Source: Chitinophaga pinensis (GTDB lineage: Bacteria > Bacteroidota > Bacteroidia > 2-12-FULL-35-15). Taken from it: DNA of 57,125 bases. Within the stretch, counting starts at the first letter, position 1; every line of letters starts with the position of its first letter. A program made the position numbers and the translations under genes. The notes beneath the pieces were generated by a model that was not told the DNA's origin, did no database searches, and saw nothing but the letters and a program-made list of their open reading frames with translations. Positions 5,368 through 56,757 of the stretch are shown in pieces. The stretch lies in assembly GCA_945885475.1 (NCBI GenBank), contig CAMCYR010000019.1, positions 1-57,125 on the forward strand, given 5' to 3'.

Positions 5368-7032
<1,665 letters not shown>

Positions 7033-7041
7033 TCCAAAATA

Positions 7042-7094
7042 ATTTCAGAAACAAAAAAACCCTTGAAAACCAAGGGTTTTTTTGTTTCTGAAAT
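7042..7094. terminator. 24-bp perfect hairpin terminator after groEL
   Basis: The arms 7042-7065 and 7071-7094 are exact reverse complements around a 5-nt loop. Seven A and seven T lie inside the arms, so it could act in both directions. It begins 10 nt after the groEL stop. Confidence 0.93.
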
Positions 7095-7140
7095 ATAACA
7101 TTAATCAGATAAAAAATAAACTAAGCAAAAATGAATTAAT

Positions 7141-7148
7141 TATCTTTG
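7141..7148 (+). promoter_or_regulatory. Bacteroidota -7 promoter box (TATCTTTG)
   Basis: TATCTTTG matches TAnnTTTG and lies 18 nt upstream of the TTG start of a small membrane-protein gene. There is no clear -33 TTG at the expected distance. Confidence 0.6.
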
Positions 7149-7165
7149 TATAAAACACTATAAAA

Positions 7166-7336
7166 TTGAACCAGGTAACCAAAGTAGGAATTATTGGATT
7201 AGGAATAACAATCCTGATAACGCTGTTGCTATTTCTGATTGCAAATGTTTCAGCGAGAGCGCTTGCACCATTTTATATGCCATGGACAGTTTTAATTCTT
7301 ATAGGGATAAGCGGTAAGAAAAAAAAAGAACATTAA
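7166..7336 (+). CDS. small hydrophobic membrane protein, TTG start
   Basis: I do not recognise this 56-residue protein. It starts with TTG at 7166, reads in frame to TAA at 7334-7336, and is preceded by a good TATCTTTG promoter box. The translation begins (M)NQVTKVGIIGLGI and continues through a hydrophobic helix at about residues 7-26. A second hydrophobic segment (about residues 36-50) follows, and the protein ends in the basic GKKKKEH. This layout suggests a two-helix inner-membrane protein with a positive cytoplasmic tail. It ends 5 nt before the next gene, so the two are probably cotranscribed. The evidence is the promoter placement, the coherent amphipathic design and the tight spacing. 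A search for homologues would be needed to settle it. Confidence 0.55.
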   Translation: MNQVTKVGIIGLGITILITLLLFLIANVSARALAPFYMPWTVLILIGISGKKKKEH

Positions 7337-7341
7337 CAGCA

Positions 7342-8184
7342 ATGAAAAAAATTACTTTAATTACATCATCAAGTATTTTATTATTCACAACCCATTTATT
7401 TTCACAAGATATTTGCGATTGTCCCTCCCAATCAAAGATCGGAAAAAGAACATTTTATTTTTCATGGGGTTATAACAAAGATTGGTTTTCGAAAAGTGAT
7501 ATACATTTTAAGAACACAACAACAGCTTACGACCAGCAAAAGGGGACTCCTCAATCGTATGATTTCACAATCTATGATGCTGAGGCAACCGACCGTCCGG
7601 GCTTTAAAGACATACCAAGGACGGATCTTACCATTCCACAATATGTTTATCGTTTAGGTTATTATTTCAATAACAAAAAAGATTTAGGTATCGAGATCAA
7701 TTTCGATCATATAAAGTACATCATGAAAGATTATCAGACACTTCATGTTGAAGGTACAATTCATGGACAAGAAATCAATCAGGATACGCTGATCAGTCCA
7801 AAAGACTTTTTACATTTCGAACATTCTGACGGCGGTAATTTCCTGATGTTAAATTTTATAAAACGTCAACGTCTGCTTGTATCAAATGATAAAAAGCACT
7901 GGTTGAGCGGGATAGTAAAAATTGGTGCCGGCCCGGTGATTCCGCGTACAGAAGTAACCCTTTTCGGAGAGAACCTGAATAATAAATTTCACATAGCCGG
8001 CTATTGCATGGGACTTGAAGCAGGTTTACGTTACGATGCGTTTAAATATGTTTTTATTGAATACACAGCAAAAGGAGCATTTGCAAACTACACGAATGTA
8101 TTAGTTATTGGCCAAGGGAAAGCAAATCACCATTTCTGGGCATTTGAAAACATACTTTCTCTGGGATTCCAATTTCCAATATAA
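7342..8184 (+). CDS. secreted protein, probably outer-membrane beta-barrel; function unknown
   Basis: The protein has 280 residues with a clear Sec signal peptide: MKK, a hydrophobic core to about residue 18, and likely cleavage after HLFSQ at about residue 22. The mature part has an early CDC pair (DICDCPSQ) and then many alternating hydrophobic and polar strands rich in aromatic residues (RTFYFSWGYNKDW, YVYRLGYYFNN, YVFIEYTAKGAF). It ends with Phe and aliphatic residues (LSLGFQFPI), as outer-membrane barrels often do. No named family is recognised. It lies 5 nt after the small membrane protein and shares its promoter. A long hairpin follows and separates it from the convergent yqeY-like gene. 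Confidence 0.75.
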   Translation: MKKITLITSSSILLFTTHLFSQDICDCPSQSKIGKRTFYFSWGYNKDWFSKSDIHFKNTTTAYDQQKGTPQSYDFTIYDAEATDRPGFKDIPRTDLTIPQYVYRLGYYFNNKKDLGIEINFDHIKYIMKDYQTLHVEGTIHGQEINQDTLISPKDFLHFEHSDGGNFLMLNFIKRQRLLVSNDKKHWLSGIVKIGAGPVIPRTEVTLFGENLNNKFHIAGYCMGLEAGLRYDAFKYVFIEYTAKGAFANYTNVLVIGQGKANHHFWAFENILSLGFQFPI

Positions 8185-8225
8185 AAACAGAACTATTTTC
8201 TGAAACTTATTTCAGGACGAGAGAT

Positions 8226-8272
8226 TAAAATAAAAAAGGTGCTAAAATAATTTTAGCACCTTTTTTATTTTA
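8226..8272. terminator. bidirectional hairpin between convergent genes
   Basis: A perfect 23-bp palindrome (8226-8248 with 8250-8272) sits between two genes that point at each other. Its GC core GGTGC/GCACC is flanked by A and T tracts, so it can end transcription from both sides. Confidence 0.88.
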
Positions 8273-8320
8273 GAAAGAGAATGGTTATCACAATAATAAA
8301 ACAATTCCAACATGAAACTA

Positions 8321-8764
8321 TTATTTACTCAACAACTCTTTAACGATAGTGGAAATAAGTTTACCATCGGCTTTACCTGCAAGCTGCTTAGAAGCAAGAC
8401 CCATAACTTTGCCCATATCAGCAGGAGAAGTAGCACCAGCAGCAGTAATAATTTTTGCAATCTCAACTTTTACTTCTTCTTCACTCATTTGTTGCGGGAG
8501 ATAAGCCTCAATCACGGTAGCTTGCGCAAGTTCAACATCAGCCAGATCCTTCCGATTTTGTGTGACATATAAATCGGCAGTTTCCTTGCGTTGTTTTACC
8601 ATTTTTTGAAGCGCCTTAATTTCTGTATCATCATTAAGTCCTTCAGCGGATGTTTTTAGCAATAAAATTGCTGATTTAATAGCACGCAATGCTTCTAATT
8701 TTGAAGCTTCTTTCGCTAACATTGCTGATTTAATATCAGCATTTATTTTTTCTTCTAAGGCCAT
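8321..8764 (-). CDS. GatB/YqeY domain protein
   Basis: This 147-residue protein matches the YqeY family, which is related to the tail domain of the amidotransferase subunit GatB. The whole length is helical. The family signatures are LEALRAIKSAI near the start, MVKQRKETADLY in the middle and the segment ADMGKVMGLASKQLAGKADG near the end. A role in tRNA-dependent amidation is suggested by homology to GatB, but the real function is not established. It is the last gene on the minus strand after ftsZ. The 314-nt gap from ftsZ contains a terminator, so it is probably transcribed on its own. No promoter box could be picked out in front of it. Confidence 0.92.
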   Translation of the reverse strand: MALEEKINADIKSAMLAKEASKLEALRAIKSAILLLKTSAEGLNDDTEIKALQKMVKQRKETADLYVTQNRKDLADVELAQATVIEAYLPQQMSEEEVKVEIAKIITAAGATSPADMGKVMGLASKQLAGKADGKLISTIVKELLSK

Positions 8765-9029
8765 ATTTTAAAATTTAAATCCCAACATAGTTTGAGAAAA
8801 GGTTTGAAAGTTTAAAGTTAAGAAAATTCCAATGAGTAGAACAAATGAACCAGGAAAGTAAATCTCGAATAAAAAAGGAGCTCTAACAGGATTTATTATC
8901 AAGTAGAATAGAGAAAACGCTTTGGGTCCTAATCAGATGCGCAAAAAAAACGATATTTAAAAATTAGATACGATTATGAATCAAGCCCATGTTGATCGTG
9001 AATTTTAAATCGGGTATATAACGTTAACA
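8765..9029. other. spacer between yqeY-like gene and ftsZ terminator
   Basis: This AT-rich stretch has no credible reading frame, RNA gene or repeat. It presumably holds the promoter of the yqeY-like gene, but no TAnnTTTG box is seen on the minus strand. Confidence 0.5.
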
Positions 9030-9059
9030 AAAAAGTCCCGCAAGATGCGGGACTTTTTA
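9030..9059 (-). terminator. terminator after ftsZ
   Basis: The stem GTCCCGC/GCGGGAC is extended by A and T tracts (9031-9042 with 9048-9059) around a 5-nt loop. It lies 19 nt past the ftsZ stop on the minus strand. Confidence 0.9.
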
Positions 9060-9078
9060 AATATTAAAACCAATTCTA

Positions 9079-10776
9079 TTAGTCAACATTATCGTGTAAA
9101 AAAGAATTGTTAGGCTTGATCTCAATTTTCTTGTCGTCACCTTCAGACAAAGTATAACGGGATACCTGAGATTCGGAAGAATGAGGTGTTGAATCCAAAT
9201 TAATATTTCTTCTCTTGTAAGCTGGCTCATTTTCTAATTCAGACAAACCATTTGGAGATTTCAATTTAAAACTCAATTCTTTCAATTTAGCAACACGATC
9301 CTGCGCTTTTTTCAGTTGCTGATCATCCTGTACCTTTGCAAAAAATGTATTTTCTTCTTTGCTTTCTATTACCGGTTCTACATTAGAAACAGGCTCCTCA
9401 AATGAATTGACAAAAATTGATTCTTCAGAAGCAAGAACATTATTTGTAACATCAAATTCGAAAGTAATCTGTTGTTTTTCTTCTTCTACTTCGAAAACCG
9501 GCTCAAGAACTTCTTCTGTGCTCTCTTCTTTAAAAAACACAAACGCTTCTTCTGCAAAGTCATTCGTTATATCAGATGCTTCATTTAAAACAGAAGAAGA
9601 TTCTTCCGCAACGATATCGTTTGTTTCTGATTGTACTTCATTTACAACAGGTGAAACATCTTCTTTGATATAAGAAGTCATTTCTGTAGGCATGAATGCA
9701 ACAACCTCAGCTTTAGGTAAAACTTCAGCGATTGTGCTAAGTTCTGCTTGAGGCTCATCTAATAATGAAAACACCTTTTTAGCTGGTGCCTTTTCTATTT
9801 GAATACCTACATCAGCTTTTGAACTGAATCCAGTTGCAATAATTGTTACATTCACTTTATCACCCAAAGAAGGATCAACACCATATCCTTTAATTACTTC
9901 AGCAGTCATGCCGGCAGCATCTTGAATATAATCAGTAATTTCTCCGAACTCATCCATTGTGATCTCATCTTCACCACAAGTAACATTCACTAATACATAA
10001 CGCGCACCTTTAATATTGCTATCATTTAATAAAGGAGAAGACATTGCTTGTTCTACTGCACGTAATGCACGTTGTTCACCGCTTGCCATTGCAGAACCCA
10101 TAATAGCAACACCACTTTCTTTCATTACTGTTTTCACATCATTGATATCGGTATTGATCTGTAAAGTAGTTGTGATGATATCAGCAATACCTTTTGCGGC
10201 AGTTGCTAAAATATCATCAGCATGACCGAAAGCTTCTGTCACTTTTAAATTACCGTAGATCTCACGCAATTTGTCATTACTGATCACAAGTAATGTATCA
10301 ACGTTTTCCTTTAACGCTTCTAAGCCTTCGTCAGCTTGCGCTTTACGTTTTTTTCCTTCAAATCCGAAAGGAATAGTAACGATACCAACTGTTAAAATCC
10401 CCATTTCTTTAGCTGCTTTAGCGATGATCGGAGCAGCACCGGTGCCGGTACCACCACCTAAACCAGCAGTAATAAATACCATTTCTGTATTATTCGCTAA
10501 AAGCGCTTTTACTTCTTCAATATTTTCGATTGCAGCATTTTTACCTACTTCAGGAAGAGATCCAGCACCACGACCTTTGGTAAGGCTTGCACCCAAAACA
10601 ATTTTCAATGGAACAGGACTCATGTCCAATGCTTGTTGATCCGTATTACAAACAATAAAATCAACACCTTTGATGCCTTGTTTATACATGTGGTTTACAG
10701 CGTTACTTCCGCCACCACCTACTCCAATTACTTTAATTATTGAAGAGTTGTCGATAGGTAAATCAAATTTCATCAT
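9079..10776 (-). CDS. ftsZ: cell division GTPase FtsZ
   Basis: FtsZ forms the cytokinetic ring. The tubulin-like GTPase domain covers about residues 14-320, with GVGGGGSNAVNHM near the start and the tubulin signature GGGTGTG at residues 107-113. The protein is 565 residues long, against about 380 in E. coli. The extra length is an acidic linker of about 200 residues, rich in Glu, Val and Ser, typical of Bacteroidota. The extreme C-terminus (PNNSFLHDNVD) is probably the short peptide that binds FtsA. The start has two consecutive Met codons; the second may be the real one. It is the last division gene of the cluster, 195 nt after ftsA, and is followed by a strong terminator. Confidence 0.97.
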   Translation of the reverse strand: MMKFDLPIDNSSIIKVIGVGGGGSNAVNHMYKQGIKGVDFIVCNTDQQALDMSPVPLKIVLGASLTKGRGAGSLPEVGKNAAIENIEEVKALLANNTEMVFITAGLGGGTGTGAAPIIAKAAKEMGILTVGIVTIPFGFEGKKRKAQADEGLEALKENVDTLLVISNDKLREIYGNLKVTEAFGHADDILATAAKGIADIITTTLQINTDINDVKTVMKESGVAIMGSAMASGEQRALRAVEQAMSSPLLNDSNIKGARYVLVNVTCGEDEITMDEFGEITDYIQDAAGMTAEVIKGYGVDPSLGDKVNVTIIATGFSSKADVGIQIEKAPAKKVFSLLDEPQAELSTIAEVLPKAEVVAFMPTEMTSYIKEDVSPVVNEVQSETNDIVAEESSSVLNEASDITNDFAEEAFVFFKEESTEEVLEPVFEVEEEKQQITFEFDVTNNVLASEESIFVNSFEEPVSNVEPVIESKEENTFFAKVQDDQQLKKAQDRVAKLKELSFKLKSPNGLSELENEPAYKRRNINLDSTPHSSESQVSRYTLSEGDDKKIEIKPNNSFLHDNVD

Positions 10777-10883
10777 TTTGTTTTTATATTTAAAATGTTT
10801 GATATTGTTGGCTGTTAACCAATGTTAATTTTATTATGCTATAAATTTGGGCTTTTTTTTAATGTAGATTTAACGCTTATACT

Positions 10884-10900
10884 CATAGTTACTAACTATG
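10884..10900. promoter_or_regulatory. 17-bp palindrome in the ftsA-ftsZ gap, possible operator
   Basis: CATAGTTACTAACTATG has 8-bp arms and a single central base, without a following T-run. It lies about 110 nt before the ftsZ start. This shape suits a dimeric DNA-binding protein better than a terminator. No matching promoter box was found, so a role in ftsZ control is inference. Confidence 0.35.
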
Positions 10901-10971
10901 GCCTGTTAATTTCTATATCAATTCCCGAACTATTTCAGGCTGAAGACCAATTTAAAAATCCACTCAAAGGC

Positions 10972-12252
10972 TTATTTTTGTGAAGCATCTTCATCAAAGA
11001 AACTCTTTAGTTTATCAAAAAATCCTGTTGTTCTTTCTTTGGAATGACCTTTAATTCCTCCTTTAACATCAGCCGTTGAGACCATCTTCTTGTTTTGTTT
11101 ATCTAATGTTTGCAGACCTTTCATCACTAATCCAACAGAAGTAGCAAATAGAGGACTCGTAACATCTTCGCTACCTTTTGCAAGATGTTCGTTCGGATAT
11201 CCGACACGTGTATCCATTCCTGTAATATATTCTATCAACTGAGAAACATGTTTTAATTGTGCACCACCACCGGTAACGACAATTCCTGCAATTAATTTTT
11301 TCTCGTAACCGGAATGTTTAATTTCATAATAAACATGCTCTACAATTTCTTCCATACGAGCCTGAATAATTGCAGAAAGATTACGAACAGAAATTTCTTT
11401 ATGTGCACGGCCTCTCAATCCCGGGATTGAAACAATCTCGTTTTCCTGATTTTCACTGGCTAAAGCCGAACCAAATTTTATTTTCAAAAGTTCTGCCTGA
11501 CTTTTAATGATCGTACATCCTTCTTTCACATCTTCTGTGATCACATTTCCACCAAAAGGAATAACAGCAGTGTGGCGAATGATTCCATCCTGAAAAATAG
11601 CAACATCAGTTGTACCACCTCCGATATCAACTAATACAACACCAGCCTCTTTTTCTTCATTACTCAAAACAGCATCAGCAGAAGCAAGCGGTTCTAATGT
11701 TAATTCGGAAACTTCCAATCCTGATTTTTGAACACATTTATAAATATTTCTTGCTGCAGCAATCTGCCCGGTAATGATATGAAAATTTGCTTCCAAGCGT
11801 ATACCAGACATACCTATTGGGTTTTTAATTCCTGATTCATTATCGATGATATATTCCTGCGGGAGCACATGAATTATTTCTTCACCGGGAGCCATCATTA
11901 ATTTATACATATCATCAATAAGAGAATCGATATCATTCTGAGAGATTTCCTGCTCAATACTTGCACGTGTTTTTATTCCACGGTGCTGCATACTTCTGAT
12001 ATGCTGTCCGGCGATTCCAACATTAACGACTTTAATATCAACACCGGATTTCGCTTCCGCTTCGGCAACAGCCGTTTGAATAGACTGAACAGTTTGATCG
12101 ATATTCTGAACCACACCTCTAGCAACACCAAAGGATTCGGATTTTCCCATTCCAAGAATTTCAATTTTTCCGAATTCATTTCTACGACCTACAATAACAA
12201 CAATTTTTGTTGTTCCAATATCCAAGCCTACTACAATTTCTGATGGTTCCAT
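10972..12252 (-). CDS. ftsA: cell division protein FtsA
   Basis: FtsA is an actin-like ATPase that tethers FtsZ to the inner membrane and recruits later division proteins. The phosphate-1 motif VGLDIGTTKIVVIVG is at residues 8-22, the SHS2-type 1C subdomain follows, and the phosphate-2 motif VVLVDIGGGTTDVAIF is near residue 210. The adenosine motif VVTGGGAQL lies near residue 325. The C-terminal end (GFFDKLKSFF) forms the amphipathic membrane-targeting helix. The length of 426 residues is typical. It lies 17 nt after ftsQ, so the two are cotranscribed, but 195 nt before ftsZ. Confidence 0.96.
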   Translation of the reverse strand: MEPSEIVVGLDIGTTKIVVIVGRRNEFGKIEILGMGKSESFGVARGVVQNIDQTVQSIQTAVAEAEAKSGVDIKVVNVGIAGQHIRSMQHRGIKTRASIEQEISQNDIDSLIDDMYKLMMAPGEEIIHVLPQEYIIDNESGIKNPIGMSGIRLEANFHIITGQIAAARNIYKCVQKSGLEVSELTLEPLASADAVLSNEEKEAGVVLVDIGGGTTDVAIFQDGIIRHTAVIPFGGNVITEDVKEGCTIIKSQAELLKIKFGSALASENQENEIVSIPGLRGRAHKEISVRNLSAIIQARMEEIVEHVYYEIKHSGYEKKLIAGIVVTGGGAQLKHVSQLIEYITGMDTRVGYPNEHLAKGSEDVTSPLFATSVGLVMKGLQTLDKQNKKMVSTADVKGGIKGHSKERTTGFFDKLKSFFDEDASQK

Positions 12253-31725: not shown

Positions 31726-31758
31726 AAAAAAGTCCCGAATTAATTCGGGACTTTTTTT
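31726..31758 (+). terminator. palindromic terminator after dsbD
   Basis: A perfect 16-bp palindrome (31726-31741 with 31742-31757) starts 2 nt after the dsbD stop and ends in T residues. It could also work from the other strand. Confidence 0.88.
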
Positions 31759-31819
31759 CCGTCCAAATAAAAACATCATTTATAAACAAATAACACTTTT
31801 AATTGTAATATTAGTTGTT

Positions 31820-31847: not shown

Positions 31848-33800
31848 ATGAGCATAAAAAAAATTACCATCATTTGTATTATTATTGGTTTTGCAATAGG
31901 ATTCAAATTCATGAATTCTGCCGCCTCTAAAAGTCCGGCAAAAAAATTTCACACACAAACACAATTGGATGCTTACCAAGGTATTCCGACCCGTGCTCCG
32001 ATAGCGCCTGGTGAATACTTTTTACCATCATCGAGTTGCAGAGGATGTCACGGCTACGACTCTGCAACTGTTTCCAATATAAACGAAGCGGGTGAAGACG
32101 TTAATCTGGTAGACAGATGGGAAAGTTCAATGATGGCATTGTCGGCAAAGGATCCCTTTTGGAGAGCAAAAGTGAGCCATGAAATAAGTGTCAATCCGGG
32201 ACATGCCGGAGCAATTCAAAACAAATGTTTAGATTGTCATGCTCCAATGGGTGCTCATACATCGAAATTCAAAGGTAATCCGTTTTATGGATTAGCTGAC
32301 CTTGTTACAGATTCATTGGGACTTGATGGGGTTTCGTGCGGCGGATGCCATGCCATTGCTCCCACTGTCGGTTACACCTTTTCAGGAAACATTCCTTACG
32401 ATACCAACCATGTTGAATATGGTCCTTTTACTGCGCCCTCTGTGGGTCCAATGCAATTGTACGAAGGATTAACCCCTGTTTATAGTAATCATATGGATGA
32501 GTCACGACTTTGTTCGGCATGCCATACGCTCATTACTGAACCATTCGATCTAGCAGGTAATCCTACAGGCGGATATTTTGTAGAACAAGCAACACATCAC
32601 GAATATCTCAACTCAGACTTTCCTGCAAACAATATCAAATGTCAAACCTGCCATATGCCTCCTATAAATGAACCAATCATTATAGCGAATGGATACACCG
32701 GTTTAACACCCAGAACACCTTTTAATCAGCATACTTTTGCAGGTGCAAATCTCTTTATGCTCAACTTAATGAAAAACAATAAAGGAACATTAGGAATAAA
32801 TGTTCCTGACAAAAGCTTTGATTCCACGATTGTTGCAACAGCCGACATGCTAAGATCAAAATCAATCAACTTTGATTTACAGTTAGTAAGTACTACGTCA
32901 GATACCGCTTTCTTTAAAGTAAAAATTCAAAACAAAGCAGGGCACAAATTTCCATCCGGATATCCGACACGAAGAGCAGTGTTGCAATTTGTTGTAACCG
33001 ATTCAAACAACGACACGATTTTTCAGTCCGGTATTTTCAACAACCAACAACGAGTAATCGGAGAAAATGCTTCATTTGAAGGCCATCACAACTATATTAA
33101 CCAATCAAACGTTCCTCAAATTTACGAATTTATTCCTGGCGACGTCAATGGTGACTTCACCTCTGTTTTAGAAAGAGCAGCTATTTTATTGAAGGACAAT
33201 AGAATTCCTCCAACCGGATTCACTACGACATCTCCAGTGTATGATACTGTTCAGATATCTAATGATGCTTTAGCAGATGGCGATTTCAACAAAGTTGGAA
33301 GTGTTGAAGGAAGCGGAACTGATTGGGTTCACTTTGCTGTCCCTTTAGCAGCAGCCGTTGGCAATATCAGCGTTAAATCAAAAGTATATTATCAGTCGCT
33401 GCCACCAAAATGGGTAGCAGATATGTTCACGTATAGCACAGCGGAGATCAACACTTTTGAAACAATGTATAATTCAGCGGATCAAAAACCGATTCTTATT
33501 GCAAGCGATAGCATCATCAATGTGCTTTTACCAACCGGTGTCAATACCTACTCTTCTAAAGAAGAAGTAAAAGCTTGGCCAACAATTTCTATGGATGGGA
33601 GAGTCTTTATCTCAGCAGCATACGGAACGCTCATCAAGTCAATAGAAGTGTTCGATGCAAATGGTAAATTGCAGTTTCAACTTCAAAACACAAGCTTCCA
33701 ATCCACCATCAGCTTGTATTTACCCGAAAGTTCAGGTATATATTATATTAAAATATATTCGGGAACAAAAATAGTATTCAAAAAAGTTGTAAAATCATAA
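31848..33800 (+). CDS. five-haem c-type cytochrome with T9SS sorting domain
   Basis: The protein has 650 residues with an N-terminal signal segment (MSIKKITIICIIIGFAIGF). Five CxxCH haem sites are present: CRGCH 64-68, CLDCH 127-131, CGGCH 164-168, CSACH 222-226 and CQTCH 265-269. Residues from about 290 to 560 contain no haem site and appear beta-rich. The end (from about residue 580) is a type A T9SS sorting domain: SIEVFDANGKLQFQL, then SGIYYIKIYSGTKIVFKKVV. Haem is attached in the periplasm, after which T9SS would carry the holoprotein across the outer membrane. Its partner or substrate is unknown; a role in extracellular electron transfer or in oxidising a surface substrate is inference. 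I chose the ATG at 31848 because the promoter lies between it and the upstream start. Confidence 0.9.
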   Translation: MSIKKITIICIIIGFAIGFKFMNSAASKSPAKKFHTQTQLDAYQGIPTRAPIAPGEYFLPSSSCRGCHGYDSATVSNINEAGEDVNLVDRWESSMMALSAKDPFWRAKVSHEISVNPGHAGAIQNKCLDCHAPMGAHTSKFKGNPFYGLADLVTDSLGLDGVSCGGCHAIAPTVGYTFSGNIPYDTNHVEYGPFTAPSVGPMQLYEGLTPVYSNHMDESRLCSACHTLITEPFDLAGNPTGGYFVEQATHHEYLNSDFPANNIKCQTCHMPPINEPIIIANGYTGLTPRTPFNQHTFAGANLFMLNLMKNNKGTLGINVPDKSFDSTIVATADMLRSKSINFDLQLVSTTSDTAFFKVKIQNKAGHKFPSGYPTRRAVLQFVVTDSNNDTIFQSGIFNNQQRVIGENASFEGHHNYINQSNVPQIYEFIPGDVNGDFTSVLERAAILLKDNRIPPTGFTTTSPVYDTVQISNDALADGDFNKVGSVEGSGTDWVHFAVPLAAAVGNISVKSKVYYQSLPPKWVADMFTYSTAEINTFETMYNSADQKPILIASDSIINVLLPTGVNTYSSKEEVKAWPTISMDGRVFISAAYGTLIKSIEVFDANGKLQFQLQNTSFQSTISLYLPESSGIYYIKIYSGTKIVFKKVVKS

Positions 33801-33851: not shown

Positions 33852-36728
33852 ATGAAAAAAACTACTCTAAAAAAGTCTTTTGTAATTGTAACATCCTGTT
33901 TAATTAGTGCTTTTAGTGCCAATGCGCAGTTTTCATTTACTAACTCTAACAGCTTAATTTCAAATTTAACACGCAGTGGTTGTGCTATTTCGGTTGTTGA
34001 TATTAACAATGATGGTCTTGACGACATTGTTAAAATGGATCAATCCGATGTGTTAGTTATTGATCTTCAAAATGCGAATGGTACATTCACAAATTATGAT
34101 TTAGGAACCATTACAGGTGGATCAAATGTATGGGGTATGGCTTTAGCCGATGTTGACCACAATGGTTGGAAAGATGTAGCTACTGGAACGAATGGAACAA
34201 TGTATCTTGTAAAACTATCATGGACAGGAACTACAATTGCCAAAACGACCACTACTTTAGCCGGCTCATATTTCGTTCAAAATATAACTTTCGGTGATAT
34301 AAATAATGATGGTTGGGTAGATTTAGCAGTATGTGATGACAATGATTTTATGAAAATTTACAAGAACAATTCCGGAACAATGTCATTAACTACTTCTTTG
34401 ATTGATACAGAAATTTATCCTGGAATGGCTTATGGTGGTGACCCATATGATTCAGGAAACTATGGAAGTGTTTGGTTGGATTTTGATAACGATGGCGATT
34501 TGGATTTATACATTGCACATTGTCGTCAATCAGCAAGTAGCTCATCTGACCAACGTAGAAGAGATCGTCTATTTGTAAACAATGGAAGTAATGTGTATAC
34601 TGAGCAAGCAGCGACCTATGGTATTGAAATTTCAAACTTCAAACAAACTTGGACAACTAGTTTTGGTGATTTGGATAACGACGGTGACTTTGATGTGGTC
34701 ATGACCAATCATGGTGAAAACGGTCAAATTTTAAAAAATGATGGATCAGGACATTTTACAGATGTTACCGCTTCGACAGGATGGGTTACATCTATTGATC
34801 CGATCGAATCAGTTGTTGAAGATTTTGATAATGATGGTTTTTTAGATATTATGATTTCTGGTTCACAATGGTATATGTGGCACAATAACGGAAATATGAC
34901 ATTTACTCCAGTAACAGGTGTTCTTCCAAACTTAGGAGGATTATTATCTTTTGCTACTGGCGATTTGAATCACGATGGATTTATCGATTTACAAACATCC
35001 TATGGAAATGTTTATAACTCTCCATCAACAGCTGACAATGATGTGTTGTACTTAAACAACAAAAATAGTAATCACTTTATCACCTTTAATTTAACAGGTA
35101 CTGCAAGTAACCACGATGCAATCGGTGCAAAAGTTATTATAACAGGTGCATTTGGAACACAAGTTCGCGAGGTTAGAGCGGGAGAAACATATGGAACTGC
35201 CAACTCAATGCAATTGCATTTCGGCTTAGGAGCGAACACAACAATCACCTCAGCAGTTATTGAATGGCCAGCTGGTGGAACAACTACTTTTGGAACACTA
35301 GCAGCTGATCAGTTTGTTACTGCAGTTGAAGGTACCTGTACAATCACCGGGAACGTAATTCCAGGGCCTTATACATATTGCACAGGAAGTTCTGTTGTAT
35401 TAACGGCTCAACCGGGTTATTCAAGCTATTTATGGTCAAACGGTTCAACAGCAGCATCTGTTACCTCTACTTCAACATCCAATTACAATGTATTGGTTAC
35501 AAGTGCGGCAGGGTGCTCCAACCTTTCTCCAACAGTATCAACCGTTCTCAATCCACCTGAAATACCCTTAGTAAGTACTTCAGGTGTAAATTCATGTGCA
35601 GGAACGCTTACTTTAACAAGTTCTGCTGCTGCTGCATATAGTTGGACCGGACCTGCAGGTTTTACTGCAACTACCCAAGCTATTAACCCTAGTGTAACAG
35701 GAACATATTCTTTAACGACAACTGGCTTATGTCAAAATTGGACAGCAGCACCAACAGCTGTTAATGTATTAGCTGCTCCTAGCCCAACAGGAACAGGAGC
35801 TGCGGGACCTGGACCAGCATCTTTCAACATTTCAGCTGCAGGGTCAGGTGGAACATTAAATTGGTATGACGCTGCAACAGGCGGAACGTTGCTTGGTTCA
35901 GGAGCTGCATTCAGCACACCGGTAATCAGTTCAACAACCAACTATTATGTTGACGAAACAACCAACTATCCTGGTTCAATTTACAACGGTGGTAGATCAA
36001 GTGGTGCAGGTTCAAATTCGAGTACCCTGAATGCCGGACTTGATTTTAACGTACTGGCACCATGTACATTAACATCCGTTAAAGTATATGCTACCACAAC
36101 AGGAGCTAAAACAATACAATTAAAAAATTCAGTAGGTACTGTTTTAAATTCTTTTACAACAGCGAGTTTGCCTATTGATTCATCAGTAATTACTTTAAAT
36201 TTCCCATTAACACCTGGAACAGGATATCGATTGACACAATCGTCTGCTACTACTCCAACATTAAAAAGAAATAATTCTGGTGTAACATACCCTTATACAA
36301 CTCCAGGCTTTGTTTCAATCACTAATGGCTATACTGGAACAACAACAAGTAGTGCTGCTTATTACTTCTACTACGATTGGAAAATTACCACTCCTACTTC
36401 GTCTTGTACTAGCGAAAGAGTTCCTGTTGTTGCAACTATATTAACATTTACGGGTATTTCTTCACTTTCTGAAAACAATGGTGTTGCTATCTACCCAAAT
36501 CCTGCAAGTGCAACAGTAAACGTTGAGTTCGGATATACAATGAATTCAGTTACTGTTATTGAAATTAACGATGTAACTGGAAGATTGGTAAAAACAGAAT
36601 CTTTTGAAAATCCTGTAAAAGGACAAATTGTCTCCTTAAATGTATCAGAACTGAATGCAGGTTCATATATGATTACAATTAAAAACAACGCTCAGAAATT
36701 AGTGCAGAAATTAGTTTTGACTAAATAA
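33852..36728 (+). CDS. FG-GAP/ASPIC repeat protein with T9SS sorting domain
   Basis: This is a 958-residue secreted protein. The signal peptide ends near residue 25 (FSANAQ). Residues 30-400 hold at least seven calcium-binding-type FG-GAP/VCBS motifs such as DINNDGLDDIV, DFDNDGDLDLYI and DLDNDGDFDVVM, expected to build a beta-propeller. An ASPIC/UnbV segment follows (about 405-490, with VREVRAGETYGTANSMQLHFGLG). Ig-like modules and a lectin- or adhesin-like region follow. A type A sorting domain closes the protein (IYPNPASATVNVEF, VTGRLVKTESF, GSYMITIKNN). It starts 51 nt after the cytochrome gene with no terminator between them, so the two are probably cotranscribed. Such proteins are usually surface adhesins or exported factors; the ligand is unknown. 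Confidence 0.9.
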   Translation: MKKTTLKKSFVIVTSCLISAFSANAQFSFTNSNSLISNLTRSGCAISVVDINNDGLDDIVKMDQSDVLVIDLQNANGTFTNYDLGTITGGSNVWGMALADVDHNGWKDVATGTNGTMYLVKLSWTGTTIAKTTTTLAGSYFVQNITFGDINNDGWVDLAVCDDNDFMKIYKNNSGTMSLTTSLIDTEIYPGMAYGGDPYDSGNYGSVWLDFDNDGDLDLYIAHCRQSASSSSDQRRRDRLFVNNGSNVYTEQAATYGIEISNFKQTWTTSFGDLDNDGDFDVVMTNHGENGQILKNDGSGHFTDVTASTGWVTSIDPIESVVEDFDNDGFLDIMISGSQWYMWHNNGNMTFTPVTGVLPNLGGLLSFATGDLNHDGFIDLQTSYGNVYNSPSTADNDVLYLNNKNSNHFITFNLTGTASNHDAIGAKVIITGAFGTQVREVRAGETYGTANSMQLHFGLGANTTITSAVIEWPAGGTTTFGTLAADQFVTAVEGTCTITGNVIPGPYTYCTGSSVVLTAQPGYSSYLWSNGSTAASVTSTSTSNYNVLVTSAAGCSNLSPTVSTVLNPPEIPLVSTSGVNSCAGTLTLTSSAAAAYSWTGPAGFTATTQAINPSVTGTYSLTTTGLCQNWTAAPTAVNVLAAPSPTGTGAAGPGPASFNISAAGSGGTLNWYDAATGGTLLGSGAAFSTPVISSTTNYYVDETTNYPGSIYNGGRSSGAGSNSSTLNAGLDFNVLAPCTLTSVKVYATTTGAKTIQLKNSVGTVLNSFTTASLPIDSSVITLNFPLTPGTGYRLTQSSATTPTLKRNNSGVTYPYTTPGFVSITNGYTGTTTSSAAYYFYYDWKITTPTSSCTSERVPVVATILTFTGISSLSENNGVAIYPNPASATVNVEFGYTMNSVTVIEINDVTGRLVKTESFENPVKGQIVSLNVSELNAGSYMITIKNNAQKLVQKLVLTK

Positions 36729-52740: not shown

Positions 52741-55700
52741 ATGTTAAAAAAAATATTCATTTTTTTTGTAATAACAGCACTTCTGAGTCTTGCTCCGAAG
52801 TTCGCTATTGGGTCTCACATTGCGGGTGGGGAAATTACATATACTTGCCTCGGGGGGAATCAATATCAGATTAATTTAAACCTGTTTGTCGACTGTTTAG
52901 GATTTGATCCCGGTGCATCACAAACTATAAATTTCACAAGTAGTTGCGGGGGAACCGCCACCCTTAATGTACCAATCACACCAGCAACAGCAGGAGGATT
53001 AGAAATTTCTCAGCTTTGCCCATCATCACTACCACTCAGCACTTGCAGTGGCGGAACCTTACCGGGAATGTGGATCTTTAGTTATACTGGCGTTGTAACA
53101 TTAGCCCCTCCTTGTGATACCTGGACGATGAGCTGGTCAACATGCTGTAGAAACACGGCTGTAACAAATGTTACGAGTTTTAATTATTACATCGAGGCAA
53201 CACTTAATAGTGCGACAGCGCTGTGTAACAGTTCTCCTCAATTTACTGCACAACCGATCCCTTATGTTTGTTTGGGTCAGACTGTAAATTATAGCTACGG
53301 AGTTGTTGAAACTGATGGCGATTCATTATATTATTCACTGATCCCTGCTTTAGACGCAGCGGGTTTACCTGTAACCTACGCAGCGGGTTATTCAGGAACA
53401 TCCCCAATTCCGGGAATCAGCATTGACCCTGTTACCGGCTTGGTGACATTCACTCCGGGTTTATTAGGGAATTTTGTGGTAGCGATCTTAGTTCAAGAGT
53501 ACGATGCTGCCGGAAACCTTGTTGGTACTGTAATGCGTGACATTCAATTTGTTGTTCAAAACTGCATTAACGATGTGCCGTCATCTACAGGCGGTTCTAT
53601 CACTAGCTTTGGAGGAAGTGCCGTACAAACCGGACCATACAGCATAGAAATGTGTGCCGGCAATTGTTTCAACTTTACAGCTGTTTATACAGATACGAAT
53701 GCAGCAGACGTTCTGACATTCATTTCCAATATTTCTGTCGCACTTCCTGGTGCTGTTATCACTTCAGCAGGAATAAATCCATTGACATTAAATGTAAACT
53801 GGTGTTCACCTGCCGGAACAATGGGACAAAATCTTACGTTCACCATTACCATCCAAGATGGTGCATGTCCTATTCAGGGACAGCAAGTATTTGTATACAA
53901 TGTGAACATTCTAGATGCAACCACTGCAAGTCCGGATATTACGATCTGCGGAACACAAACTGCAGCCCTTAACGCATATGGAGGAAGTATTTTCAACTGG
54001 ACAGTTGTTTCCGGACCACCGATGACACCGACCAACTTTTCTTGTAATCCTTGTGCCAACCCTGTTGCAACACCAACTGCAACCACTACCTATCAAGTTG
54101 TGAGTAACCTAAGCGGAACATGTGATAATATTGATACCGTTACTGTGGTTGTAGTTCCGGGATTCACTTATAACGTAACACAAAGTTCAACCAACTCTTG
54201 TTTACAGGATCCTGTTCAATTGGATGTAAACACTTTTTCACCTGCAGGAGCGTATACCTTTTCATGGAGTCCGGGAACGAACTTAAGCAGCACAACCATT
54301 GCTAATCCTGTAGCTACATTTATTGCACCGGGAACATACACCTATACGGTAACAGTAACAAGTCCGTTTGGCTGTGTTCAAACAACTACCGTTTCAATTT
54401 TTGCTGCACCAGCATTTGCCCCACAAATAACAGCATATGGCGACACCACTTTTTGTGCTGGAGGAACAGCGAACTTAACGATGGTGTTTGACGGAGGTTC
54501 TACACCACCAACATGCGGATTAAGCGCTACGGGCGGATGTGGCGGAGCATCAATTGCTGGAACCGTTGGTACAGGAACAGCTGCGAATACAGCTACTACT
54601 TGGCCGGCAATTTTTGGAAACTGGTATACCTCTACAAAACACCAGCTGTTATTTACAGCAGCTGAATTAAATGCGGCAGGAATTACCGGTGGAAAAATTG
54701 ATCAGCTCGACTTTAATGTGACTATGATAAACGGTATTACTACATATCATCAATTTACCATAAAAATGGGCTGTACCAACCTTTCTGCATTGGGAACAAC
54801 CTGGGTATCGGGATTGGTGCAGGTATTTAATCCGGCAACCGTTAACGTTGCAATTGGATGGAATACAATGATTCTGAATAACGCCTTTGAATGGGATGGT
54901 TTATCTAATATTATTGTTGAAGTATGTAGCACTGAAGGTCCGCCCTATTCCAACTTTACACAAAGTTGTATCTCTCCTTATACTACTACAACATTTACAT
55001 CATGCTTATACAGTTATACCGATTCGTTTGACATGTGCCCCGATCTTACCAACTTTATCAATGCATCGAACAATCGTCCGAATGTAAAATTCCACTATTG
55101 TTCGATTGCACCAAACCCAGCAAATTTTACGTATCTGTGGACACCTGCCAGTGGCGTAATTGCAAATGCAACAGCGCAAAACACAACAGGAACACCGGCT
55201 GCATCACTTGATTATGTGATCACCGTTACGGATATTGCAGGAGGTTGTTTTGATACAGACACGGTTCAAGTAAACGTAATCAATATCAATACATTAACAG
55301 TTACACCTGCTGGACCGTATTGTGTGAATGGTAGCATTGATACTTTACAAGTATCAGTTCCGACTGGAACAGGGTTATGGTCAGGAACAGGAATAACGAA
55401 TACAACAACCGGAATATTTAATCCTACAGTTGCAGGAGTTGGAACACATGAAATAATTTACAATGTGAGCGGATCATGCGGAACAGGAGCTGACACCATC
55501 AGCATTGTGGTGATCCCTCAACCAGATGCAACCATTACTTCACCCGGAAATCTTTGTGCTTCGGGAACAGCAGTTACATTAGTTGCTGCAACGGCAGGCG
55601 GAACATGGTCCGGCGTAGGTATCACAAGTGCAGCTGCAGGAACATTCGATCCGGCAATTGCAGGCGTTGGAAACCATTTGATCACCTATACCATTTCAAC

Positions 55701-56757
55701 ACCTTGTACTGCACAGGATACAATTTACATTAATGTTACTTCACAGCTGAACGCAACCATTACAAGTATAGTAGGACCATTTTGTACAACAGCAAGTGCA
55801 GTAACATTAGTAGCAGCTGATGCCGGTGGAACATGGACAGGAACAGGTATTACAAACGGAACAACAGGTGTATTTGATCCTGCAACAGCTGGTGCAGGAA
55901 CACATATTATTACGTATACCATTACAGGATTATGTGGCGCAGTGGATACTACAGCGATAATTGTAGTTGCTTCACCAATCATTTCTTTTGTGTCGGACAC
56001 AACAGAAGGCTGTGAACCAACAACGATTAATTTCAGCAGCACGGTTAATCAGGCGGGAGGCACTTATTTATGGTCGTTTGGAGATGGAAACACATCAACG
56101 ACAGCAAATCCGAGCAATGTTTATTTATTAGATGGTACGTATGATGTTACACTTACGTATAACAACACAACAGGTTGTGCTGCAACATCCACACAAGTGG
56201 CTCTGATAATTATACATTCGCAGCCGATCGCGATCTATAGCGCAGGTCCTCAGCCAACAACGATCACTAATCCATTGATCAACTTTACGGACAATTCATT
56301 GGGAATCATCAACGACTGGTCGTGGACCTTCGGAACAGTAGGATCATCAACGAATCAAAATCCTTACTTTGTATTCCCTGACAGCGGATCGTATGCGGTA
56401 CAGTTGATTGTAACCAATAACTTTGGTTGCACGGATACAACTAACGGAACGATTGTTATTGATCCGATCGTAGTGTTTTATGCACCGAATGCCTTTACAC
56501 CGGGAGATGGCAATGGAATAAATGACAGCTTTGTGGTAAAAGGAGATGGAATAGCGTATTCTAAGTTCGAGATGACAATTTATAACCGTTGGGGAGAGCG
56601 CATCTTTAAATCCAGCGATATTAATTTGGGCTGGAACGGGAGACGGAACAATACGGGAGTGCTTGTTGAGCAAGAAGTATATGTATGGAAAGTAAATTTC
56701 GAAGATATCAAGGGGAAAAAGTACCAATACATTGGGCACGTGACGATTGTAAAATAA
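52741..56757 (+). CDS. giant surface protein with gliding-motility-type T9SS domain
   Basis: The protein has 1338 residues with a signal peptide ending near residue 24 (KFAIGSH). The start of the mature protein (HIAGGEITYTCLGGNQYQIN) is a module found at the front of many Bacteroidota surface proteins. Middle parts are Ig- or PKD-like and Cys-containing. Residues of about 852-1075 hold three tandem repeats of about 74 residues, each with a GGTWSGxGIT-type motif, FDPAxAGxGxH and ITYTI. PKD-like segments follow (LWSFGDGNTST, WSWTFGTVGSS). The end (NAFTPGDGNGINDSF, YNRWGERIFKS) is a type B sorting domain of the gliding motility-associated family. The protein should be exported by T9SS to the cell surface. 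An adhesin role is likely, but the target is unknown. Confidence 0.93.
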   Translation: MLKKIFIFFVITALLSLAPKFAIGSHIAGGEITYTCLGGNQYQINLNLFVDCLGFDPGASQTINFTSSCGGTATLNVPITPATAGGLEISQLCPSSLPLSTCSGGTLPGMWIFSYTGVVTLAPPCDTWTMSWSTCCRNTAVTNVTSFNYYIEATLNSATALCNSSPQFTAQPIPYVCLGQTVNYSYGVVETDGDSLYYSLIPALDAAGLPVTYAAGYSGTSPIPGISIDPVTGLVTFTPGLLGNFVVAILVQEYDAAGNLVGTVMRDIQFVVQNCINDVPSSTGGSITSFGGSAVQTGPYSIEMCAGNCFNFTAVYTDTNAADVLTFISNISVALPGAVITSAGINPLTLNVNWCSPAGTMGQNLTFTITIQDGACPIQGQQVFVYNVNILDATTASPDITICGTQTAALNAYGGSIFNWTVVSGPPMTPTNFSCNPCANPVATPTATTTYQVVSNLSGTCDNIDTVTVVVVPGFTYNVTQSSTNSCLQDPVQLDVNTFSPAGAYTFSWSPGTNLSSTTIANPVATFIAPGTYTYTVTVTSPFGCVQTTTVSIFAAPAFAPQITAYGDTTFCAGGTANLTMVFDGGSTPPTCGLSATGGCGGASIAGTVGTGTAANTATTWPAIFGNWYTSTKHQLLFTAAELNAAGITGGKIDQLDFNVTMINGITTYHQFTIKMGCTNLSALGTTWVSGLVQVFNPATVNVAIGWNTMILNNAFEWDGLSNIIVEVCSTEGPPYSNFTQSCISPYTTTTFTSCLYSYTDSFDMCPDLTNFINASNNRPNVKFHYCSIAPNPANFTYLWTPASGVIANATAQNTTGTPAASLDYVITVTDIAGGCFDTDTVQVNVININTLTVTPAGPYCVNGSIDTLQVSVPTGTGLWSGTGITNTTTGIFNPTVAGVGTHEIIYNVSGSCGTGADTISIVVIPQPDATITSPGNLCASGTAVTLVAATAGGTWSGVGITSAAAGTFDPAIAGVGNHLITYTISTPCTAQDTIYINVTSQLNATITSIVGPFCTTASAVTLVAADAGGTWTGTGITNGTTGVFDPATAGAGTHIITYTITGLCGAVDTTAIIVVASPIISFVSDTTEGCEPTTINFSSTVNQAGGTYLWSFGDGNTSTTANPSNVYLLDGTYDVTLTYNNTTGCAATSTQVALIIIHSQPIAIYSAGPQPTTITNPLINFTDNSLGIINDWSWTFGTVGSSTNQNPYFVFPDSGSYAVQLIVTNNFGCTDTTNGTIVIDPIVVFYAPNAFTPGDGNGINDSFVVKGDGIAYSKFEMTIYNRWGERIFKSSDINLGWNGRRNNTGVLVEQEVYVWKVNFEDIKGKKYQYIGHVTIVK

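Follow-up and report, generated by a model that had tools for sequence, protein, structure and literature searches.

The window, a 57,125-nucleotide stretch of DNA from a Bacteroidota bacterium, encodes a five-haem cytochrome c that ends in a type IX secretion system (T9SS) sorting tail and is followed by the gene of a second T9SS-tailed protein (Table 1). The reading that we favor, and that we regard as likely from the sequence comparisons described below, is that the T9SS exports this pentahaem cytochrome in its haem-loaded state. The pairing of the cytochrome with a T9SS-tailed partner and the existence of a tail-less sister clade were both absent from the first-pass annotation of this DNA, and they proved more informative than the points that the annotation did raise.

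Table 1. Coordinates of the features at the cytochrome locus, in positions of the window.
Feature	Coordinates	Strand	Basis
Inverted repeat flanked by A and T runs, terminator-like, between dsbD and the cytochrome gene	31727..31757	.	sequence read
Five-haem cytochrome c ending in a T9SS type A sorting tail, 650 aa (ATG form)	31848..33800	+	
Hydrophobic N-terminal segment, residues 1-34, probable Sec signal peptide	31848..31949	+	translation, by eye
Five-haem region, CxxCH at 64-68, 127-131, 164-168, 222-226, 265-269	32037..32654	+	motifs, homologue alignment
Beta-rich domain 3' of the haems, with an AGHKxPSGYPxRR motif that has related forms in c552 (5ze8) and MccSep/ExtKL	32829..33527	+	
T9SS type A C-terminal sorting domain	33603..33797	+	TIGR04183 and fold match
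Partner: FG-GAP/VCBS repeats, ASPIC/UnbV, Ig_7, T9SS type A tail; 958 aa, separated from the upstream cytochrome by 51 bases	33852..36728	+	

The cytochrome frame lies on the + strand and ends at position 33800; its start may be placed at 31815 (TTG) or at 31848 (ATG). When read by eye, the N-terminus begins with positive charges, followed by a hydrophobic stretch and by small residues near SAAS. The five CxxCH motifs that the first-pass annotation had placed within residues 64 to 269 are present and begin at residues 64, 127, 164, 222, and 265. When the letters of the protein itself were shuffled 20,000 times, CxxCH was absent from 19,914 of the products and occurred once in 86, and no product contained two or more. 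None of the 42 other open reading frames (ORFs) of the window (nonoverlapping set, at least 90 aa) contains the motif. Five covalently bound haems would imply electron-transfer chemistry. AlphaFold gave a cytochrome model of low overall quality (mean pLDDT 49.7); from the fold search, use was made of the matches to the tail and of the top match, to c552, alone.

A type A T9SS sorting domain had also been predicted at the C-terminus, and the prediction is borne out both by profile and by fold. Residues 589 to 649 match TIGR04183 with 34.5 bits (E of 1.5e-8, cut-off 23), and the same tail reaches 40.1 bits in the whole-genome scan with this model. The agreement with sorting-domain profiles is nevertheless partial, since Pfam PF18962 gives 20.8 bits against its own cut-off of 27. 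Residues 591 to 650 are modeled with block means of pLDDT between 73 and 84, and Foldseek matches this part to translocon-bound T9SS C-terminal domains (CTDs): 8gl8_D (TM by target 0.81, E of 6e-4), 8gl6_D (0.78, 6e-4), and 8glk_D (0.74, 1e-3). A search of the Protein Data Bank (PDB) with a profile of 41 homologues likewise retrieved the NucA T9SS CTD 8glk_D (1e-5) and a gingipain CTD, 5hfs (0.003). The tail thus has its profile and fold in common with type A cargo (the NucA and RemA CTDs and the CTD of gingipain RgpB), and differs from it in the passenger, here a multihaem cytochrome c.

At the position where a PNP motif is usual, the tail of the cytochrome reads WPTIS. WPT or a near variant is found throughout the window's close group, and PNP or PNPFNP is found in remoter homologues (for example, L017, L018, L023, L026-L030, and L044-L047). 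Mean pairwise identity is 0.43 in the tail versus 0.63 to 0.68 in the core, a difference that a signal domain would accommodate but that weaker constraint would also accommodate. One could suppose that the tail is a beta-sandwich that has decayed or been recruited, with the cytochrome remaining periplasmic, as the subthreshold PF18962 score, the altered PNP of the window's clade, and the existence of tail-less homologues would allow. We consider this quite improbable, given that TIGR04183 is matched above its cut-off, that all close relatives carry the tail, that remote homologues have a canonical PNP, that the fold is that of CTDs bound to the translocon, and that the partner is T9SS-tailed too.

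The host genome encodes SprA, whose gene is split by contig ends (2407 bits, with another piece lying where a contig begins), and PorU (1338.6 bits). Together with the profile, fold, and conservation of the tail, these genes back the predicted status of the cytochrome as T9SS cargo, as the first-pass annotation had proposed. Such cargo is also as unusual as had been supposed. TIGR04183 has 120 matches in the 3.06-Mb assembly; all 120 frames were read (one of them shorter than listed), and CxxCH occurs five times in the cytochrome alone, once in 2 frames, and not at all in 117. The search for further multihaem proteins with TIGR04183-type tails that had been suggested earlier, carried out in these 120 frames of this genome, thus returned none besides the cytochrome. 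The frames with a single CxxCH are a choice-of-anchor V protein (NF041895; L112:68-904) and a protein of 552 aa (L162:52-1707). Since there are two frames with one motif and one with five, single-haem T9SS cargo can be taken as a milder precedent, with multihaem cargo being unique in the genome. Single-haem T9SS-tailed proteins of the choice-of-anchor V type (NF041895) share CxxCH and the tail with the cytochrome but combine one motif with other domains, in contrast to its five motifs.

Several other proteins were noted in the course of these searches. At positions 52741-56757, the window encodes a protein of 1338 aa whose T9SS type B tail scores 34.4 bits against an NCBIfam cut-off of 35. A probable lipoprotein of 675 aa in the same genome (L021:139-2166) is multihaem, with a C554-like haem region and TPR-like repeats, and has no T9SS tail. 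A search with PF13435 was set aside, as it led to a different protein, multihaem with TPR.

Among structures in the PDB, the profile of 41 homologues matches best the pentahaem c552 of Thermochromatium tepidum (5ze8, 7e-12), and the MccSep/ExtKL selenocytochrome is matched at 2e-9. The similarity to both resides mostly in the beta domain with its AGHKxPSGYP motif, and the haem region alone scores weakly. The same c552 structure is the top Foldseek match of the cytochrome (E of 4.3e-8), with whole-chain TM values of 0.27/0.40 that reflect the poor model. NF040886, the ExtKL model, gives 31.1 bits on the window's cytochrome, far under the equivalog cut-off of 250, and weakly matches every one of the 41 tailed homologues and 15 of the 16 that lack a tail. 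A score of 31 versus a cut-off of 250 marks the protein as an ExtKL relative, not as ExtKL itself. As judged from these profile and fold matches, the cytochrome is a distant relative of the ExtKL and T. tepidum c552 pentahaem cytochromes. It resembles the low-potential c552 in that a beta domain carrying a related motif comes after five haems; unlike c552, which has no T9SS tail in the match, it carries one, and the tail is an addition also with respect to the ExtKL/MccSep multihaem (seleno)cytochromes (NF040886; PDB 9wt8), to which the profile kinship is weak.

Functional information on these relatives was taken from excerpts of PMC11976967. There, the T. tepidum c552 is described as having no assigned function, ExtKL is grouped with the PHCs of cable bacteria and credited with structural homology to c552, and a proposed relation of the archaeal nanowire AvECN to c552 is attributed to Baquero 2023. 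The PHCs have pentacoordinated haems and are hence classed in the same excerpts as potentially catalytic. One could also imagine that the protein binds or stores haem or iron at the surface instead of transferring electrons, and HBP35 of P. gingivalis, going by the title of a reference, may be a T9SS-linked precedent for haem binding. This idea is very improbable. The characterised relatives are cytochromes, and haems at CxxCH are covalently attached and so, as is generally known, cannot be released as a nutrient in the usual way.

The histidines outside the haem motifs bear on whether the cytochrome carries electrons or uses them in a reaction of its own. In the 20 closest sequences, H35, H119, H215, H251, H295, H366, and H413 are invariant; H295 and H366 alone remain so when all 57 homologues are compared, with H215 present in 48 of 57. 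Full bis-His ligation is therefore not guaranteed family-wide, and the cytochrome may be a redox enzyme working outside the cell rather than a carrier, in which one haem with an open axial site would act on an extracellular small molecule. The potentially catalytic cable-bacteria relatives (PMC11976967, in the excerpts considered) point in the same direction, as does the position of one paralogue (L073) beside a T9SS-tailed glucose/sorbosone dehydrogenase-like protein. Against this, H35, H119, H215, H251, and H295, which lie in or near the haem region, would be enough for five bis-His haems in the group of 20 to which the window's protein belongs. We know of no active-site motif for this cytochrome family, which also counts against an enzyme. 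Overall, a catalytic role is a serious rival to that of an electron carrier, even if we hold it to be somewhat unlikely.

Relatives of the cytochrome are encoded at 20 public loci (L001-L020), and 19 of the 20 proteins have five CxxCH motifs; the exception, L020, is a partial frame at a contig edge with 28% identity. Of 395 genomes sampled evenly across the phylum, 57 gave a match at E ≤ 0.001, and 22 of these 57 gave one above 350 bits. The homologue alignments comprised 41 tailed and 16 tail-less sequences, with L049 and other weak or partial matches excluded. All five motifs are kept across the 57 aligned proteins save for gaps at two motifs in one sequence. TIGR04183 (E ≤ 0.01) is found in 40 of the 41 tailed homologues and does not figure among the matches listed for the 16 that have no tail.

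The partner gene lies directly 3' of the cytochrome in 18 of the 20 loci (L001-L017 and L019), the remaining two being L018 and L020. At 10 of these 18 loci, no further flanking gene matches those of the window, two weak matches aside. Within the order, represented in the genome set by a single genus, the cytochrome is present in 20 of 36 genomes, and the partner (at least 600 bits) is present in the identical 20; in the 16 that remain, the cytochrome is missing and matches to the partner do not exceed 181 bits. Because of shared descent within one genus-level group, this co-occurrence does not amount to 36 independent trials. Judging from gene order and co-occurrence, the cytochrome and the T9SS-tailed FG-GAP/ASPIC protein are a conserved two-gene unit. 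It holds no other haem protein and no inner-membrane or periplasmic carrier. The AlphaFold model of the partner is poor (mean pLDDT 55.2).

The upstream dsbD gene was considered as a further member of the unit and rejected: it is upstream in the close group L001-L008 only and not in the 10 divergent loci, and the terminator-like repeat stands between it and the cytochrome gene. The terminator scan lists this repeat on the - strand only, and found 4 such sites versus a shuffle mean of 3.5.

Variations on the arrangement are seen elsewhere. In genome G045, the partner adjoins one of three cytochrome paralogues (L072). A second partner copy with no adjoining cytochrome occurs in the window's own genome (G000:C10:16810-19698, equal to L098:8802-11699; 1585 bits) and likewise in G425 (L100). 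At L073, the paralogue (6915-8864) is arranged head to head with the dehydrogenase-like gene (8904-10424), whose T9SS-tailed product resembles glucose/sorbosone (PQQ) dehydrogenases and is a possible extracellular electron donor. Other tailed homologues have T9SS-tailed propeller-like neighbours of unrelated families, NHL/SGL and BNR (L077:9366-10637 and L079:6014-7321).

Eleven of the tail-less homologues, 551 to 589 aa long, terminate just past the shared core. In a quick tree of the 57 core sequences, from which the tail columns were excluded, they form one clade with an SH-aLRT of 100. The tail state requires 3 changes on this tree as compared with a shuffled mean of 14.3, with the tree being based on one model and having several long branches. 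Loss of the tail as a consequence of losing the T9SS was ruled out, since SprA is above its cut-off in all 11 of the tail-less hosts; the same is true of 12 of 12 tailed hosts examined.

All 11 members of the tail-less clade are adjoined by a gene that combines an N-terminal cytochrome c (PF13442) with a probable outer-membrane barrel. The barrel part, at the C-terminus, weakly matches the outer-membrane barrel family PF13557 in 5 of 5 proteins scanned (best 1.4e-4). A profile built from five of these neighbours had no match in the fetched loci of tailed homologues (272, 229, and 97 proteins scanned), all its matches being in tail-less loci. At L083, only a 174-aa piece of the neighbour was recovered as an ORF. 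The cytochrome-barrel protein measures about 390 aa and is conserved over the 11 loci (L082:8956-10143, L085:6069-7229, and L093:1691-2833 among them). In genome G302, a tailed and a tail-less pentahaem copy, 54% identical, stand in tandem (L080:7410-9293 and 9390-10994); this twelfth tail-less copy has no cytochrome-barrel neighbour.

The presence of the barrel neighbour in 11 of 11 clade members points to work of the cytochrome family at the outer membrane. With a tail in one branch and a barrel neighbour in the other, the comparison of gene neighborhoods supports the view that the family would act at or beyond the outer membrane, and one cytochrome family appears to occupy two outer-membrane settings. 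The tail-less sister clade, paired with a cytochrome c and a probable outer-membrane barrel, resembles the porin-cytochrome conduits of the MtrCAB type. The window's cytochrome differs from these conduits in having no barrel neighbour and in coming from a genome where MtrB is not matched.

Two conduit profiles, MtrB/PioB and the cytochrome-barrel protein, were searched against the window's genome. Nothing matched the MtrB/PioB porin at E ≤ 1, and the second profile brought up no protein that joins a cytochrome to a barrel as in the sister clade. One candidate for the latter was rejected since the match spans only the haem domain of a membrane cytochrome c of 223 aa. Cytochrome and porin can also be fused, as in Cyc2. 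The suggestion in the first-pass annotation that the protein serves extracellular electron transfer is possible. In its stronger form, in which the cytochrome is the terminal element of such transfer and has a link through the outer membrane to respiration, it would find precedents in the 11 of 11 sister-clade members that pair the same cytochrome with a cytochrome-barrel protein and in the Geobacter cluster that, according to excerpts of PMC11976967, encodes ExtKL together with the porin ExtI. The genome, however, has neither an MtrB/PioB match at E ≤ 1 nor a cytochrome-barrel protein, and the unit contributes no inner-membrane or periplasmic carrier, so we regard this terminal role as unlikely.

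Export of the haem-loaded cytochrome by the T9SS would proceed as follows. The protein would reach the periplasm via Sec and would receive its haems there. Attachment of c-type haem is periplasmic, so loading would precede passage of the outer membrane. The folded cytochrome would then be recognised by its tail, pass through SprA, and have the tail cut off by PorU. It would then sit on the surface together with its propeller-like partner, and electrons would move through the haems between a surface partner and a donor or acceptor outside the cell. Taken at face value, the sequences suggest that the T9SS can place electron-carrying proteins on the cell surface.

A broader proposal, which we put forward only tentatively, is that the T9SS of Bacteroidota represents a distinct, evolved route by which multihaem cytochromes are placed outside the cell. 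The family would be delivered by the tail along with a T9SS-tailed propeller partner or, in the sister clade, would be tied to a cytochrome-barrel protein at the outer membrane. Rather than ending a porin conduit, the T9SS form would be a detached redox complex on the surface, and it might assemble with its partner or form filaments like those of AvECN, its proposed relative.

Among the matches listed in a search of the open-licence literature, none joins the T9SS with a multihaem cytochrome as one finding. The word "cytochrome" occurs 0 times in the available portion of a review of T9SS effectors (PMC10202324). Predicted secreted multihaem proteins are reported for metagenome-assembled genomes of Bacteroidota in PMC11495043, and "type IX" is absent from the portion considered. 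The known surface routes of multihaem proteins named in excerpts of PMC11475568 are porin-cytochrome complexes, lipid-anchored cytochromes, and cytochrome polymers.

A T9SS-tailed pentahaem cytochrome would represent a route that differs from these, and one that would require a holo-protein with five covalent cofactors to move through the translocon. Two arrangements at the outer membrane can be compared naturally within this family, one in the tailed clade and one in its tail-less sister. For Bacteroidota with predicted secreted multihaem proteins, the cytochrome may serve as a mechanistic handle on a possible redox chemistry of the cell surface.
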